From Cytophagales bacterium (GTDB taxonomy: Bacteria > Bacteroidota > Bacteroidia > Cytophagales > Cyclobacteriaceae): DNA of 64,000 bases. Under the pieces are notes generated by a model. The model was not told the origin of the DNA. It did no database searches and saw nothing but the letters and a program-made list of their open reading frames with translations. Of the stretch, positions 49,621 to 56,199 are shown in pieces. The stretch's first letter is position 1; each line of letters opens with the position of its first letter. The stretch lies in NCBI GenBank assembly GCA_017303805.1, contig JAFLBQ010000007.1, forward strand, positions 124,001-188,000, in the 5' to 3' direction. A program made the translations under genes and the position numbers.

Positions 49621-49971
49621 CTATAAAAATCCAAGTTCCAGTTTGGCGGCTTCACTCATCATATCCTGCGAGTAGGGGGGATCAAACGTTAGCTCCACCT
49701 TCACACTACTTACGCCCGGAATTTCTTTCACTTTTTGTTCTACTTCACCCGGAATTACTTCTGCCGATGGGCAGGAAGGCGAGGTAAGTGTCATTTGAAT
49801 GTACACGTTATTTACCGGAAATACATTGATCTCATAAATCAGCCCCAGCTCATAAACATCTACAGGTATTTCGGGGTCGTAAACGGTTTTTAGTGCGGCA
49901 ATTACTTTGTCGCGCAAATCACCTTGCGGAATTTCTATGGGCAATTCAGTATGTTGTGTCTGTTCGTTCAC
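49621..49971 (-). CDS. DUF59/MIP18-type iron-sulfur assembly protein of the SUF system
   Basis: The 116-residue protein has the DUF59 blocks VYDPEIPVDVYELGLIYEI and QMTLTSPSCPSAEVIPGEVE, the latter with the conserved Cys. The end, FDPPYSQDMMSEAAKLELGFL, is typical of SUF-linked members (SufT-like). These proteins help insert or mature Fe-S clusters. The start overlaps the sufE stop by four bases (ATGA), so it is part of the suf transcript. Confidence 0.9.
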   Translation of the reverse strand: MNEQTQHTELPIEIPQGDLRDKVIAALKTVYDPEIPVDVYELGLIYEINVFPVNNVYIQMTLTSPSCPSAEVIPGEVEQKVKEIPGVSSVKVELTFDPPYSQDMMSEAAKLELGFL

Positions 49972-50402
49972 CGGGCAAGTTCTGTTTGAGTTTTAAAAGC
50001 GAAGGCATATAACTTCATTTGTTTGATCATGGCTGCGAAACCATTGGAACGCTGCGTGCCAATGAAACGTTCCATGCCGATTTTATTCATGAAGTAAAGC
50101 TCGGCATTCAGAATGGCTTCTGGTTTTTGATGGTTAAAAATCCGTACCAGCAAACTCACCAGGCCTTTGGTAATAGCGGTGTTGCTATCGGCTTCAAAAA
50201 CGATTCCGCCATTTTCTAACCGGGCTGTAAGCCAAACTTTCGATTGGCAACCTTTCACCACGTTATCTTCTGTTTTGTCAACTTCTCTCATTGCCGGTAG
50301 TTTCTGACCCAGTTCCATGATATAGAATACAGTCATTTCCATATCGCCATCCAGCAACGAGAACTCGCCTATTATTTCGTCTTGAATCTGGTTGATCGAC
50401 AT
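49968..50402 (-). CDS. sufE: SufE family sulfur acceptor
   Basis: The protein (144 residues) accepts persulfide sulfur from SufS and passes it to the SufBCD scaffold. The active-site Cys is in VVKGCQSKVWLTA; IIGEFSLLDGDMEMTVFYIMELGQKLP is the family N-terminus. It overlaps sufS by one base and the DUF59 gene by four, so all three are translated from one message. Confidence 0.94.
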   Translation of the reverse strand: MSINQIQDEIIGEFSLLDGDMEMTVFYIMELGQKLPAMREVDKTEDNVVKGCQSKVWLTARLENGGIVFEADSNTAITKGLVSLLVRIFNHQKPEAILNAELYFMNKIGMERFIGTQRSNGFAAMIKQMKLYAFAFKTQTELAR

Positions 50403-51637
50403 TACTTAAGGAATTTGATGATTCGTTCAACACCTTCGGCCAGTTGATCAATTTCAGCCTTTGTATTATAAACTGAAAACGATGCTCTCACAGTTCCCTC
50501 AATACCAAGCCGATCCATTAAAGGTTGTGTGCAATGGTGACCCGTGCGCACCGCTATGCCGCGCGTATCTAGCATCTGACCAATATCAAAATGGTGGATA
50601 CCTTCAATCGCAAACGACTGCACACTTACTTTTTTCTTAGCTGTGCCAATCAGTTTAACTCCCTTAATCGCAGATAATTTCTCAACAGCATAAACAAGCA
50701 GTTCATGCTCATAAGCCACTATGTTATCTTTACCCAATTCATTAATGAAGTTAACCGCTTCGTTTAAAGCAACTACATCACCAATGTTGGGAGTGCCCGC
50801 TTCAAACTTGTAGGGGAGGTCGTTGTAAGTTGTTTTGGTAAATGTTACTTCTTTAATCATTTCGCCACCACCCATATAAGGCGGCATTTTTTCCAACAAC
50901 TCTCTTTTACCATACAGAATGCCAGTGCCGGTGGGGCCAAACATTTTGTGCGATGAAATGCAGTAGAAATCGCAATCCAGTTCCTGTACATCAATAGGTA
51001 AATGAGCAGAAGCCTGTGCGCCATCTATTAGTACAACGGCACCGGCTTCATGTGCTAACTTTATTATTTCTTTTACCGGATTAATGGTGCCCAGGCTGTT
51101 AGATGCATGGTTTACGGCCACCACTTTTGGTTTACCCGTAAGTAATTTCCGATACGCATCAAGGTCCAGTTCACCGCTTTCCGTTACCGGGATTACTTTT
51201 ATACGAGCTTTACGTTCTTCACAAATCAGTTGCCATGGAACAATGTTGGAGTGATGTTCCAGCCCGGAGATGATCACTTCATCGCCTGCATGTAAAAAGG
51301 TACGTCCGTACGATGCAGCAACCAGGTTAATACTTTCGGTTACACCTCGGGTAAAGATGATCTCTTCTGAATGCCTGGCGTGAATAAAATTCTGCATCGA
51401 AAGCCGCGTGGCTTCATAGGCTTTAGTAGCCCGCTCGGCCAACGTATGAATGCCCCGGTGAATGTTGGCATTATCGTGCTGGTAATAGTGAGTGAGCGCA
51501 TCAATAACCCGTTGTGGTTTTTGGTTGGTGGCCGCATTATCAAAATATACCAGGGGCTTACCATTTACTAATTGATGCAACACCGGAAATTGAGCCCGGA
51601 TTTTTTCAACATCAATAGGAGCGGTAAGTACACTCAT
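50402..51637 (-). CDS. sufS: Cysteine desulfurase SufS
   Basis: SufS (411 residues) is a PLP enzyme that removes sulfur from cysteine for Fe-S cluster building. Features are YFDNAATNQKP, IFTRGVTESINLVA, the PLP lysine in DFYCISSHKMFGPTGTG and the catalytic Cys in VRTGHHCTQPLMDR. It follows sufD by two bases. Confidence 0.97.
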   Translation of the reverse strand: MSVLTAPIDVEKIRAQFPVLHQLVNGKPLVYFDNAATNQKPQRVIDALTHYYQHDNANIHRGIHTLAERATKAYEATRLSMQNFIHARHSEEIIFTRGVTESINLVAASYGRTFLHAGDEVIISGLEHHSNIVPWQLICEERKARIKVIPVTESGELDLDAYRKLLTGKPKVVAVNHASNSLGTINPVKEIIKLAHEAGAVVLIDGAQASAHLPIDVQELDCDFYCISSHKMFGPTGTGILYGKRELLEKMPPYMGGGEMIKEVTFTKTTYNDLPYKFEAGTPNIGDVVALNEAVNFINELGKDNIVAYEHELLVYAVEKLSAIKGVKLIGTAKKKVSVQSFAIEGIHHFDIGQMLDTRGIAVRTGHHCTQPLMDRLGIEGTVRASFSVYNTKAEIDQLAEGVERIIKFLK

Positions 51638-51639
51638 AC

Positions 51640-52938
51640 CTAAAAGTTCTTTTGTAACCGGTCGGCAATCAATTGATCGAGGTACAATTTCAGCGTTTCG
51701 TTTTGGATAGGTTCTAATACTTCGGCTGCGAACGCATAAAGCAACATGGCCTTGGCGTTGGCTTCGGCAATTCCGCGTGAGCGCAGATAGAACAAGGCTT
51801 CCTCATCCAATTGGCCTGAAGTACATCCATGCGAACATTTCACATCATCGGCCCAGATTTCAAGTTGAGGCTTGGTGTTGATGGTAGCATGGTCGGAGAT
51901 AATAATATTGCGGTTGGATTGAAACGCATTTGTCTTTTGTGCATGGGGCCGCACATAAATCTTTCCATTGAAGACTCCTTTGGAATTTCCATCCATTATA
52001 CCCTTATACATTTCGTTGCTGAATGAGTTGGGCTTTTTATGATCCACCACGGTATGATTATCTGCCAGCGTATTTCCGTTCAGCAGATACAAACCGTAGA
52101 AGTGCGATTCGCAATTTTCACCGTCAATTAAAATCCGGAGGTTATTCCGGATCAATTGCCCATTCAGCGTAAGCGTAAACGTATTGAGTTTACTGGAAGT
52201 GGTTTGATGAATAACAGAATTTGAAACCTGGCAGATTTTGCCCGCATCGTTCTGGATTTTGCAATACTCTAAATGTGCATCGTCTTTTACTACCCATTCT
52301 TCCGCGAAGTTGTGGAATACAACCTCGTTGCCAATGGAATCTGATTTTTCGATTACACTTACGGTAGAACCTTTTTCAATAACGGCTAACAAGCGTGTTT
52401 GCGAAACTACCTGTTCAGCAGATGCATCATGTAGCTGAAGAATAAACACCGGTTTATTAACGGACGTGCTTTCAGGTACGTGAATAAAAACGCCTTCTTG
52501 CCAGGCTGCGGTATTCCAGGCGGCAAAGGCATCTGTTTCATTTTGCAGGTAGTTATTGAAATGCGCTTTGGCTATCGGGTTCTTTAAAAGCGCATCGCTT
52601 AATCTTAAAATGGTTATCTCCGATTCGAGGCTAACTACTTTCGAGAGCAGTGGATTAAACCGCCCATTTACCAACACAACCACGTTGGCGTCCAGGCCGG
52701 GTAGCAAGTAATCTGCAATCGATGAAAGATTGCTTTCGGGTGTGCTTTTATTCCAGTTAAAATTCTTTTCTAAATGCCGGGTAACAGGAGTGAAGCGGTA
52801 TTCTTCCTGTTTGGAATCAGGCAATCCGATTTTTTTTAGTTGAGCCAGCGCTTCGGTGCGCAACTCAGCTTCGGCAGTCAGGCTTTTCTGCGCCTCAATA
52901 ATTTCGGATGTAAGATCGCGTGCGATGGAGGTACTCAT
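51640..52938 (-). CDS. sufD: Fe-S cluster assembly protein SufD
   Basis: SufD (432 residues) forms the SufBC2D scaffold with SufB and SufC. The beta-helix core and the SufBD C-terminus are clear: SNEMYKGIMDGNSKGVFNGKI, SDHATINTKPQLEIWADDV and KCSHGCTSGQLDEEALFYLRSRGI. It follows sufC by two bases. Confidence 0.95.
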   Translation of the reverse strand: MSTSIARDLTSEIIEAQKSLTAEAELRTEALAQLKKIGLPDSKQEEYRFTPVTRHLEKNFNWNKSTPESNLSSIADYLLPGLDANVVVLVNGRFNPLLSKVVSLESEITILRLSDALLKNPIAKAHFNNYLQNETDAFAAWNTAAWQEGVFIHVPESTSVNKPVFILQLHDASAEQVVSQTRLLAVIEKGSTVSVIEKSDSIGNEVVFHNFAEEWVVKDDAHLEYCKIQNDAGKICQVSNSVIHQTTSSKLNTFTLTLNGQLIRNNLRILIDGENCESHFYGLYLLNGNTLADNHTVVDHKKPNSFSNEMYKGIMDGNSKGVFNGKIYVRPHAQKTNAFQSNRNIIISDHATINTKPQLEIWADDVKCSHGCTSGQLDEEALFYLRSRGIAEANAKAMLLYAFAAEVLEPIQNETLKLYLDQLIADRLQKNF

Positions 52939-52940
52939 TT

Positions 52941-53696
52941 TCAGGCTACAGTTGCTTCGCTTTTAATCCAATCGTAACCTTTGGCTTCAAGTTCAAGGGC
53001 CAGTTCTTTCGAGCCAGACTTTACAATCTTGCCTTTGTAGAGTACGTGTACATAATCGGGCACGATGTAATCCAGCAGGCGCTGGTAGTGCGTAACCACA
53101 ATGGTTGCATTGTTTTTAGTGCGGAGTTTGTTTACCCCGTTGGCAACAATGCGCAAGGCGTCAATATCTAATCCAGAATCGGTTTCATCCAGAATGGCAA
53201 GCTTAGGTTCCAGCATGGCCATTTGAAAAATTTCGTTGCGTTTTTTCTCGCCACCGGAAAAGCCTTCATTTAATGAGCGATTCAAGAGCGATTGATCAAT
53301 TTCAACCAGCTTCATTTTCTCTTTCATCAATTGCAGGAACGATACAGCATCCAATGCTTGCTGCCCACGATATTCCCGAATCTGGTTAAGCGCAGTCTTC
53401 ATAAAGTTGATTGTGCTTACGCCCGGAATTTCTACCGGATATTGAAATGCCATAAAGATTCCTTCGCGGGCCCGATCTTCGGGTGATAGCTCCAGCAAGT
53501 CTTTTCCAAGAAAATACACTTCGCCACCACTTACTTCATAATCTTCCCTGCCTGAAAGTACCGAGGCCAATGTACTTTTACCGGAGCCGTTCGGTCCCAT
53601 AATTGCATGTACTTCTCCGGCATTTACCTGCAGGTCAATCCCGTTAAGGATTTGTTTCTCGCCAATTTTTGCTTGTAAGTTCTTTATTGATAACAT
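52941..53696 (-). CDS. sufC: Fe-S cluster assembly ATPase SufC
   Basis: SufC (251 residues from this ATG) is an ABC-type ATPase that drives shape changes of the SufBCD scaffold. Walker A is GPNGSGKST at residues 34-42, the signature is FSGGEKKRNEIFQM and Walker B is LAILDETDSGLDIDAL. An ATG eight codons earlier is in frame; the later one gives the standard N-terminus MLSIKNLQAKIG. Confidence 0.96.
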   Translation of the reverse strand: MLSIKNLQAKIGEKQILNGIDLQVNAGEVHAIMGPNGSGKSTLASVLSGREDYEVSGGEVYFLGKDLLELSPEDRAREGIFMAFQYPVEIPGVSTINFMKTALNQIREYRGQQALDAVSFLQLMKEKMKLVEIDQSLLNRSLNEGFSGGEKKRNEIFQMAMLEPKLAILDETDSGLDIDALRIVANGVNKLRTKNNATIVVTHYQRLLDYIVPDYVHVLYKGKIVKSGSKELALELEAKGYDWIKSEATVA

Positions 53697-53746
53697 AGTT
53701 CTATTGTTCAAATTATTCACGCAAAGACGCTAAGGCCGCAAAGAGT

Positions 53747-55192
53747 TTATCCAACGCTTCCTTCCAATGTTAAGGCTAAAAGCTTTTGTGCTTCTACTGC
53801 GAACTCCATTGGAAGCTGGTTCAAAACTTCTTTAGCATAACCGTTCACAATTAACGCTACCGCTGATTCTTCATCGATGCCGCGTTGCAAACAGTAGAAT
53901 ATCTGATCTTCGCCAATTTTTGATGTGGTAGCTTCATGTTCGATGCGGGCCGAGTTATTCTCAACATCAATATAAGGGAAGGTGTGTGCACCGCACTGAT
54001 CGCCCATCAACAACGAGTCACATTGCGAGTGGTTACGGGCGTTGGCAGCACGTTTCATTACATGCACTTGTCCTCGATAGCTATTTTGAGATTTGCCAGC
54101 CGAGATGCCTTTGCTCACAATCCGCGAACGCGTGTTTTTACCAATGTGAATCATCTTTGTACCGGTATCGGCTTGCTGATAGTTGTTGGTAACAGCAACC
54201 GAATAAAATTCACCTACTGAATAATCACCCTTCAATACACACGATGGATATTTCCAGGTTATGGCCGAGCCGGTTTCTACCTGGGTCCACGAAATCTTGG
54301 AATGATCACCAGCACACAAGCCGCGTTTGGTTACAAAGTTGTAAATGCCACCTTTACCTTGCTTATCGCCTGGGTACCAGTTTTGCACCGTAGAGTATTT
54401 TATTTCGGCTCCCTTCATGGTATAAAGTTCTACCACGGCTGCATGCAGTTGGTTTTCATCGCGCATGGGCGCAGTGCACCCTTCCAGGTAGCTTACATAA
54501 GAACCTTCATCGGCAACAATTAACGTTCTTTCAAACTGGCCGGTGTTGGCCGCATTGATGCGGAAGTAAGTCGAAAGTTCCATCGGGCACCGTACGCCTT
54601 TTGGTATGTAGCAGAACGACCCATCGGAAAACACAGCCGAATTGAGTGCTGCAAAATAGTTATCCGTCATCGGCACAACCGAACCGAGGTATTTCTTTAC
54701 CAACTCCGGATGTTCTTTAACGGCTTCGCTGAAGGAACAGAAAATGATTCCCAGTTCGCTCAGCTTTTCCTTAAACGTAGTTGCCACAGATACACTGTCG
54801 ATAACGGCATCAACCGCTACACCGGTTAACCTTTTTTGCTCGGTTAAAGAGATGCCCAGTTTTTCAAAAGTCTTGATCAGTTCCGGATCTACCTCTTCCA
54901 AACTGGTGGGTTTAACTTTTTGCTTGGGCGCAGAGTAATAAATGATGTCCTGGTAGTTGATGGCAGGGTAGGTTACGTTGGGCCATTTGGGTTCAACCAT
55001 TTTCTGCCATTGCCGAAAGGCTTTCAGGCGCCATTCCAGCAACCACTCCGGCTCATTTTTTTTAGCTGAAATAAACCGAACGATGTCTTCACTCAACCCT
55101 TTGGGGGCTTCATCTGCCTCCAGGTTTACAGTCCAGCCATGCTCGTATTCTTTCGAGGTGATTTCTTCCAGAACCTGATTGCTTTTACTCAT
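53747..55192 (-). CDS. sufB: Fe-S cluster assembly protein SufB
   Basis: SufB (481 residues, normal length) is the main scaffold on which the nascent Fe-S cluster is built. Seen are [52 protein letters not shown] and the C-terminal [23 protein letters not shown]. It is the first gene of the operon sufB-C-D-S-E plus DUF59. Two copies of TACTTTTG lie 34-52 bases upstream. Confidence 0.97.
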
Positions 55193-55284: not shown

Positions 55285-55749
55285 TCAGGTTAGTTTAAGA
55301 TTTCTGTCCAGGCTTTCTTCAAGCGAAATCATGGTTTCAGTTCGCTCTATTCCTTCTACCTGCTGCATTTTGTCGTGTAAAACTTCTTTCAGGTGGCTGG
55401 TATCGCGGCAATGAATGCGCACAAACATGCTATAATTGCCTGTGGTGTAGTGAATGTTGGTGATTTCGGGAATGCCTTTAAGTTTGGCTAACACCATTTC
55501 GTATAAGGCGCTTTTCTCCAGGTAAATACCTATGAATGCGGTGATGTCGTAGCCCAACTTAGCGTAATTGATTTTGAGTGTTGTTTTCTCCAGAATGCCT
55601 GCATCTTCCATTTTATTCATGCGCACGTGAACTGTTCCTTGTGAAACATTTACCCGCTTTGCCACCTCGGTATATGGCCGCTTGGCGTCTTGCATCAGGA
55701 TCTCGAGGATTCGAAGGTCGGTTTGATCAATTTCAAAATGACGGCTCAT
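55285..55749 (-). CDS. Lrp/AsnC family transcriptional regulator
   Basis: The protein (154 residues) has the AsnC-type winged helix-turn-helix (ILEILMQDAKRPYTEVAKRV then VSQGTVHVRMNKMEDAGIL) and the C-terminal RAM ligand-binding domain (YDITAFIGIYLEKSALYEMV, EITNIHYTTGNYSMFVRI). Members sense amino acids and control their metabolism. It precedes the suf operon on the same strand, 92 bp away, but a functional link is uncertain. Confidence 0.93.
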   Translation of the reverse strand: MSRHFEIDQTDLRILEILMQDAKRPYTEVAKRVNVSQGTVHVRMNKMEDAGILEKTTLKINYAKLGYDITAFIGIYLEKSALYEMVLAKLKGIPEITNIHYTTGNYSMFVRIHCRDTSHLKEVLHDKMQQVEGIERTETMISLEESLDRNLKLT

Positions 55750-55869
55750 ACTGATAGTGTTTTTGTAAAATTATCAATAAATATTCTATATTATTAAATT
55801 ATATCTAAAATTTAGTTCTGTTTGTTGACTTAAAATACCATGTATGCGTTACTTTGTGATATAATTTAT

Positions 55870-55896
55870 AATTCACAAAACGGGACGATGTGAATT
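55870..55896 (+). other. Hairpin upstream of the tRNA-like RNA
   Basis: AATTCAC and GTGAATT form a perfect 7-bp stem with a 13-nt loop in the otherwise empty spacer. It could be part of a 5' leader of the RNA or an operator. Confidence 0.4.
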
Positions 55897-55930
55897 GGAG
55901 CGAAAAGCTGAGGATGTTCTTTTAAAACAA

Positions 55931-56077
55931 TGTAGGGTGTTGAAACTGGCAGACAAGCCCTCCTGTCTCGGGGGTGGAGAGCAAAGGATAAACGCAAGGT
56001 AATGGGTTGACCACTAAAATGTTTTCTTATGCCTTGCAGCTAACTTCTCCGTGGAGGTTCGAACCCTCCCTCTACAG
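55931..56077 (+). ncRNA. tRNA-like structured RNA with a giant variable arm and GUC anticodon-like loop
   Basis: A full tRNA frame can be folded. Acceptor TGTAGGG pairs with CTCTACA (one G-U). T8 is present. The D arm is TTG / CAA with loop AAACTGGCAGA, like tRNA-Leu. The anticodon arm is CCCTC / GGGGG with loop CTGTCTC (anticodon GTC). The T arm GGAGG-TTCGAAC-CCTCC is canonical and the discriminator is G; CCA is not encoded. Between anticodon and T arms lie about 77 nt instead of the usual 13-20. They form an outer stem GGAGA / TCTCC and an inner stem GCAAGGTA / TGCCTTGC. A terminator follows directly. It could be an odd tRNA, an intron-bearing tRNA or a mimic. tRNA type is unresolved. Confidence 0.65.
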
Positions 56078-56081
56078 CAAC

Positions 56082-56114
56082 AAGCCTCTCGGTTTATTAC
56101 CGGGAGGCTTTTTT
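56082..56114 (+). terminator. Intrinsic terminator of the tRNA-like RNA
   Basis: An 11-bp stem (AAGCCTCTCGG / CCGGGAGGCTT, one G-U) with a 7-nt loop is followed by TTTT. It begins four bases after the discriminator base of the RNA, which marks it as a separate transcription unit. Confidence 0.9.
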
Positions 56115-56199
56115 CGTTTAAATTGAGCCTAACAATCGATTGCCGGTACCACCTTTTTTTTATTTCTTTAGAATTCAATAGAAGCTAAAAAGAGAATCG

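Follow-up and report, generated by a model that had tools for sequence, protein, structure and literature searches.

To our knowledge, all known tRNA-dependent amino acid synthesis makes use of tRNAs that also decode. tRNAs that work outside decoding are known as well, such as the tRNA-Gly of peptidoglycan synthesis. As far as asparagine is concerned, the regulator AsnC senses this amino acid, and in Escherichia coli the asnC gene is divergent from asnA, with a gap of 151 bp. A tRNA-dependent route to asparagine relies on a non-discriminating (ND) AspRS, tRNA-Asn and GatCAB (Deinococcus, Thermus, Bdellovibrio). The Bacillus cereus pseudo-tRNA is a further non-translating tRNA, going by the excerpt of PMC3399842. 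As for the molecular signals involved, bacterial GatCAB recognizes U1-A72 (excerpt of PMC4206432), and the bacterial Asp set consists of G73, G10, G34, U35, C36 and C38, with G2-C71 as a minor determinant and G1-C72 as a helping pair (excerpt of PMC9976931).

In this work, we describe a tRNA-like RNA encoded in a 64,000-nucleotide stretch of DNA from a Cytophagales bacterium, the whole of which we call the window. Going by its sequence signals, the adjoining gene and its distribution among genomes, this RNA is probably a non-decoding tRNA dedicated to the tRNA-dependent synthesis of asparagine, which would be charged with Asp and then amidated to Asn. This supports and sharpens one of the three readings offered by the first-pass annotation, that of a tRNA for a non-ribosomal use; the regulatory RNA that it also offered explains less, and the intron has to be given up, as detailed below. 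The RNA was scored with two covariance models, R1, which derives from an alignment of 32 sequences (A1), and R2, with which ordinary tRNAs score at most 62 bits. The features of the locus are the following:

55285 to 55749, minus strand: AsnC-like transcription regulator, 42% identical to E. coli AsnC over 149 aa, divergent from the RNA
55750 to 55930, no strand: divergent intergenic region, holding the -7-like box TTACTTTG at 55849-55856
55931 to 56078, plus strand: tRNA-like RNA (171.7 bits with R1, 118.6 bits with R2)
55931 to 55937, plus strand: 5' acceptor strand, U1 G2 U3 A4 G5 G6 G7
55963 to 55969, plus strand: anticodon loop CUGUCUC, with GUC at 55965-55967 and U37
55975 to 56052, plus strand: structured variable region of 78 nt, with outer stem, internal loop GAYAAA/CUAA and inner hairpin
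56053 to 56069, plus strand: perfect T arm, GGAGG-UUCGAAC-CCUCC
56082 to 56114, plus strand: intrinsic terminator, a 12-bp hairpin (56082-56093/56099-56110) followed by a T run

The acceptor helix (55931-55937/56070-56076) has seven pairs, one of which is G-U, and it is followed by T8 and by a three-pair Leu-like D stem carrying U10; the anticodon stem pairs 55958-55962 with 55970-55974, and the 3' end is made of G73 (56077) and C74 (56078). The anatomy given in the first-pass annotation (acceptor, T8, Leu-like D loop, U10, anticodon stem, U37, T arm and terminator) is indeed present, and the long insert that it put at about 77 nt is structured and measures 78 nt. The mature RNA is expected to span 55931-56077 plus CCA, with C74 encoded in the genome at 56078. 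Most other tRNA genes of the same genome likewise end in N73-C without the full CCA, so that such a 3' end is normal there. The region 55931-56115 folds with a z of -2.4 (5 of 200 shuffles as good). We take TTACTTTG to be a near-consensus Bacteroidota -7 box for the RNA gene; upstream of the window RNA it does not match the strict form TAnnTTTG, and similar boxes precede many of the 115 listed copies.

In its own genome the RNA is single-copy (one blastn match) and terminator-ended. This genome also has a normal tRNA-Asp (GUC) with G1-C72, a tRNA-Asn with U1-A72, and at least 34 matches to family RF00005 of Rfam (of 238 candidates, 150 were scored). ARAGORN, one of the checks suggested beforehand, called no tRNA in the window, and no Rfam family, tmRNA included, matched the window at its gathering score; matches to PyrR, STnc and the like lay far below gathering scores and were rejected.

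Homologues were found by blastn in 40 of 58 genomes (own included); eight genomes of the same genus gave no match, G030 and G005 among them being near complete. In A1, 18 of the 31 pairs show double changes, 94.4% of cells are paired and none of 500 shuffles is as good. Homologues with compensatory changes, on which the first-pass annotation had made its proposal depend, thus clearly exist. A larger set of 55 chosen loci yielded 100 copies, 94 of them distinct, on which all counts out of 94 are based. Here 24 of 31 pairs show double changes, with a covariation of 0.400 versus 0.160 in an alignment fitted to the model, and the T-arm pairs are paired in 100% of cells. U1-A72, G2-C71, U8-A14, A15-U48, G18 G19, U35, C36, C38, the UUCGA T loop, G73 and C74 are invariant in all 94, so the tertiary features of the canonical L shape (U8-A14, 15-48, G18 G19, T loop) are present throughout. 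The canonical decoding loop, U33 followed by a purine at 37, is not maintained: position 33 is U in 78 copies and A, G or C in 16, and position 37 is always a pyrimidine (U in 91, C in 3). From this conservation, the RNA body appears to retain the features required by tRNA-handling enzymes and by a synthetase that reads the anticodon, and to lack those required for reading codons. In some copies (L031/L175, L037, L132) the T stem carries two inserted bases, as in GAGTTGG, which is unusual for a tRNA.

The variable arm is ordered as an outer stem, an internal loop with GAYAAA opposite CUAA, and a hairpin of free length. The two pairs that close the internal loop, formed in 90 of 93 and 88 of 93 copies, covary to a degree that none of 2000 shuffles reached, and we take this loop to resemble the UAA/GAN motif. 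Homologues range in length from 77 to about 196 nt. An intron, which the first-pass annotation had considered, is rejected: the insert is a class II variable arm, with a covarying stem and an inner hairpin, is placed outside the anticodon loop and differs freely in length between homologues.

The RNA family is widespread. The search with a covariance model across the Cytophagales, which had been advised at the outset, placed the RNA in 221 of the 291 genomes searched (R1, with an R2 recheck of part). Over these and 395 genomes of the phylum, the listed R1 scores split into values of at least 79 bits and an ordinary-tRNA background of about 64 bits or less, the latter being included in the raw tallies at E 0.001 (367 phylum and 282 order genomes). 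Genomes G049, G556 and G575, where the copy is either split or truncated at a contig end, were counted as RNA-bearing. The RNA-bearing families comprise 15 of the 22 drawn from the order, f22, f23 and f26 elsewhere in the class and, beyond the class, f66. With R1, the genomes sampled from f24, f25 and f29 yielded background scores or nothing. A sequence pattern that fits 88 of the 94 distinct copies retrieved at least 120 stretches from the collection, with Hymenobacter, Spirosoma, Dyadobacter, Algoriphagus, Cyclobacterium, Chitinophaga, Pedobacter, Mucilaginibacter, Saprospiraceae and an Ignavibacteriales bin among the matches listed; plasmids gave no copies at the sensitivity used. Tandem arrays reach six copies (L138, L145). 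In these two loci and in L136, L137, L139, L140 and L134, four to six copies stand in tandem about 185-230 bp apart, those of the same array being by eye nearly identical or differing mainly in the variable arm.

The RNA is also found in phages (loci L296-L331 and L400). Viral contigs gave 36 pattern matches, all 36 confirmed by R1, with two copies truncated at contig ends; in many of these contigs the RNA sits among ordinary tRNA genes, in L311 and L316 together with tmRNA and an ordinary tRNA-Asp, and the phage genome LR756504 (636 kb) carries one copy. Twelve phage copies are short forms of 91-96 nt, which ARAGORN labels tRNA-Asp (it missed the long forms tested); seven of the twelve adjoin tRNA-Met, four of those seven tRNA-Leu as well. 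All 28 distinct complete phage copies have U1-A72, G2-C71, the CAGC end, G34, U35, C36 and C38.

The identity elements of the RNA agree with the greater part of the bacterial Asp set, and with the GatCAB signal (excerpts of PMC9976931 and PMC4206432, respectively). Of the AspRS identity elements named in the first-pass annotation, U35, C36, C38 and G73 are kept in all 94 copies and G34 in 87. The complete tRNA-Asp set is not there, and against an Asp carrier one must count G10 in only 5 of 94 copies (position 10 is mostly U or A), G1-C72 in none and G34 replaced in 7. The AsnC-type regulator beside the RNA, AsnC being a sensor of asparagine, also pointed to Asp/Asn. The Asp signals of the anticodon combined with U1-A72 led us to predict AspRS and then GatCAB as partners, and a search for GatB, taken as the marker of GatCAB, was run on that prediction. 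GatB was found in 10 of 10 chosen RNA-bearing genomes and in 0 of 20 chosen RNA-less ones (Fisher p 3e-8, without correction for kinship), and in 12 of 14 control genomes, E. coli and Bacteroides ihuae being those without. In the whole order, by hand count, it is present in 216 of 221 RNA-bearing and 48 of 70 RNA-less genomes, and of the 27 genomes without GatB, 22 lack the RNA too; the RNA-bearing genomes without GatB (G513, G553, G571, G584, G592) are all fragmented assemblies of 220-690 contigs. The 48 genomes with GatB and without the RNA speak against the asparagine carrier; 21 of them belong to the small-genome family f21. R2 was run on 29 genomes of the order that have GatB without the RNA, on 3 from family f21, and on 6 negatives as well as 2 positives, the remaining RNA-less genomes of the order being judged by R1 alone. 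A hidden short form in the RNA-less, GatB-bearing genomes was rejected, as R2 gave only background there (27 of 28 top background loci are tRNA-Leu by ARAGORN), except in G556 and G575, whose copies are truncated at contig ends, and in G683, which holds a decayed remnant.

The synthetase content of these genomes was also considered. Each of the 30 chosen genomes has three or more class IIb synthetases, three matches being taken by count as Asp-, Asn- and LysRS, and 27 have GlnRS, which is absent from the RNA-bearing G545, G330 and G338. Seven of the ten chosen RNA-bearing genomes, the own one included, have GlnRS and, by count, AsnRS, so that in these seven GatCAB is unneeded for the charging of tRNA-Gln and tRNA-Asn. 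The control genomes of Thermus and Deinobacterium also pair GatB with GlnRS. Two candidate partners were discarded. A dedicated extra class IIb synthetase does not emerge, as 28 of 30 genomes give three matches, with four in the RNA-bearing G545, where the fourth falls in its AsnA, and in the RNA-less G285. GlnRS had been suggested by U1-A72, G2-C71 and G73, and the RNA is present in the three genomes that lack it. In an AspRS alignment of 10 RNA-bearing plus RNA-less genomes, no column separates the two groups, which speaks against the asparagine carrier.

The RNA and the asparagine synthetases have a largely complementary distribution. With joined E. coli AsnA and AsnB as query (59 genomes, E 1e-20), AsnA or a full-length AsnB was found in 5 of 27 RNA-bearing genomes versus 25 of 32 without the RNA (Fisher p 6e-6, again uncorrected for kinship). 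All 20 genomes that lack both the RNA and GatB have one of these enzymes; among 12 further RNA-less genomes, five have one (G051, G610, G642, G677, G701) and seven do not, and among ten RNA-less GatB-bearing genomes outside f21 that were tested, five lack both AsnA and an E. coli-type AsnB (G036, G037, G041, G574, G653), which counts against the carrier reading. On the RNA-bearing side, 22 of 27 have neither AsnA nor a full-length AsnB. Four of them (G206, G234, G045, G304) gave no match at 1e-20. In the remaining 18, the only matches are proteins of about 600-700 aa with weak similarity to E. coli AsnB, mainly in its glutaminase part. The own genome has three such AsnB-like proteins of about 600-640 aa (L368, G000:C12:182856, G000:C1:478464). 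The one scanned passes the cut-off of the asparagine synthase model (497 bits for 267) and misses that of an exopolysaccharide amidotransferase model (516 bits for 817), so we do not claim that this genome depends on the RNA; the second weak protein scanned, from the RNA-less G653, also exceeds the asparagine synthase cut-off. The five RNA-bearing genomes with AsnA (G328, G222, G047, G545, G044) count against the carrier reading. G047 and G222 hold altered loops (AUC in the 77-nt form; CUC), and their genus-mate G683 holds only a decayed remnant (L365:1354-1470, minus strand), which would fit a relaxed need for the RNA, although this is only suggestive; G545 and G044 keep the normal loop.

The regulator gene also points to asparagine. 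The NCBIfam AsnC model (PRK11179) is the best of all models for three members of the family (168, 166 and 161 bits), the window regulator scoring 168 bits with it and 46 bits with Lrp; we name it AsnC-like because these scores stay below the curated cut-off of 227. Its best solved structure is 2cg4, which is E. coli AsnC. Of 40 loci (the window and 39 others), 27 have a gene of the Lrp/AsnC family, each time upstream and divergent, at 109-214 bp. Among the matches listed, 78 of the 108 loci with room have the regulator (12 of 120 have no room): 74 are divergent within 300 bp, 2 lie further off and 2 overlap, which looks like the result of an over-long frame. No other arrangement was seen in the 40 loci or among the 108 matches listed, two sets that have some genomes in common, and the regulator is not beside the RNA in 13 and 30 loci, respectively, which counts against the asparagine reading. 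The genes beside the AsnC-like gene in the window (49968-55192) resemble a SUF iron-sulphur cluster operon, whose members were seen again in as many as 10 of the 40 loci; no conserved gene stood out downstream of the RNA among the loci compared.

The same slot can be occupied otherwise. In two genomes without the RNA, G110 and G410, an AsnB gene takes its place, divergent from the AsnC-like gene at a distance of 118 bp, and the AsnB of G110 is over the asparagine synthase cut-off and just under that of the AsnB model. The RNA-less G477 keeps the FadD-AsnC-SufB order of the window (names given by eye) with the RNA gone from between; GatB is absent from it and AsnB present. In G477 and G059, also RNA-less, the AsnC-like genes are not beside their AsnA or AsnB. 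At L395:2172-2411, an RNA-less slot between AsnC-like and FadD-like genes, a promoter-like box and a terminator-like hairpin remain, by eye.

From these observations we infer charging, amidation, release, exclusion from decoding and a direction of regulation. The divergent promoter, under the asparagine-sensing AsnC-like regulator, would transcribe the RNA, which would be trimmed in the fashion of a tRNA. The normal AspRS would load it with aspartate through G34, U35, C36, C38, G2-C71 and G73, and GatCAB would recognize U1-A72 and amidate Asp to Asn on the RNA; the true tRNA-Asp of the own genome, with its G1-C72, lacks this signal. Asn would then be freed as an amino acid and become available to AsnRS; we know of no enzyme here for this release. 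The loop, without a fixed U33 and with a pyrimidine 37, would bar Asn-RNA from Asp codons. A possible role of the long variable arm is to keep the enzymes together, although its length is not essential, as the short phage forms show. We somewhat favour the broader picture in which this Bacteroidota chimera of AspRS and GatCAB substrates replaces asparagine synthetase behind an AsnC-type switch, in multiple copies, and is carried by phages to sustain asparagine during infection.

Other readings have to be weighed. The RNA could be bound or charged by AspRS and/or GatCAB as a sensor of, or a competitor for, the Asp/Asn-tRNA supply, without being an intermediate of synthesis, as the adjoining regulator gene, the single terminator-ended copy in the own genome and the AspRS and GatCAB signals would allow; we find this unlikely, because arrays of up to six copies and the complementary distribution with asparagine synthetases fit a work-horse better, and in phages the RNA stands among ordinary tRNAs. 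We regard it as very unlikely that asparagine is made on the ordinary tRNA-Asn by a non-discriminating AspRS and GatCAB, as proposed for Bdellovibrio, with the RNA merely correlated, even though the U1-A72 of the own tRNA-Asn opens this classical route and the excerpt of PMC4206432 lists Bacteroidetes among the clades with AsnRS, GlnRS and GatCAB and without asparagine synthetase. This would leave the AsnC slot and the presence of AspRS signals and U1-A72 in one RNA unexplained. A His in AspRS, which we take as the mark of the non-discriminating type, is absent from 10 AspRS of RNA-bearing genomes and from RNA-less ones as well, which makes it a weak test.

Charging by SerRS with a serine that would be donated outside the ribosome is barely credible, as U35, C36 and C38 are invariant although SerRS does not read the anticodon, and as the 77-nt form has no long arm and no link of serine to GatB or AsnC is apparent. 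Its appeal lies in the class II shape and G73, the bacterial Ser set being G73, G2-C71, R4-Y69 and a large variable region (excerpt of PMC9976931), but the RNA has A72 where C72 is expected. An extra decoding tRNA-Asp, in keeping with the GUC of most copies and the ARAGORN label of the twelve short phage forms, is most improbable given the variable position 33, the constant pyrimidine 37 and the normal tRNA-Asp of the own genome and of several of the same phage arrays.

If the asparagine carrier reading is true, a tRNA can turn into a pure metabolic cofactor, and the retention of GatCAB in many Bacteroidota despite AsnRS and GlnRS, a question raised for such genera in the excerpt of PMC4206432, would be explained. 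No earlier description of the RNA was recognised in the open-access PMC literature, as represented by excerpts; this widespread family is missed by ARAGORN (long forms tested) and has no Rfam match in the window, and the RNA is a clear target in phage biology.

Compared with the known systems, the proposed one comes closest to the ND-AspRS route, with which it shares GatCAB kept despite AsnRS and GlnRS, a U1-A72 substrate and, often, the lack of AsnA and of a full-length AsnB. Here, however, the proposed carrier is not tRNA-Asn but a separate RNA with an Asp anticodon and a non-decoding loop, and the RNA-bearing genomes tested have no extra class IIb synthetase, bar the weak AsnA-type match in G545. 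With tRNA-Asp (GUC), the RNA shares G34 (87 of 94), U35, C36, C38, G73 and G2-C71, but it has U1-A72 instead of G1-C72, mostly U10 or A10 instead of G10, a class II body with a long variable arm, a Leu-like D arm, an unfixed U33 and a pyrimidine 37. With tRNA-Leu, whose members are the best-scoring ordinary tRNAs of the model and score at least 16 bits lower with R2, it shares the D arm and the class II architecture, and it differs by G73 instead of A73, another anticodon loop and a usually much longer variable arm. Like the Bacillus cereus pseudo-tRNA and the peptidoglycan tRNA-Gly, it is tRNA-shaped and apparently non-decoding, and it is set apart from them, judging from their descriptions, by lineage and proposed role. 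Finally, as in the E. coli asnC-asnA pair, an AsnC-type regulator is divergent from a gene that would serve to make asparagine, with the difference that the partner here is an RNA gene.
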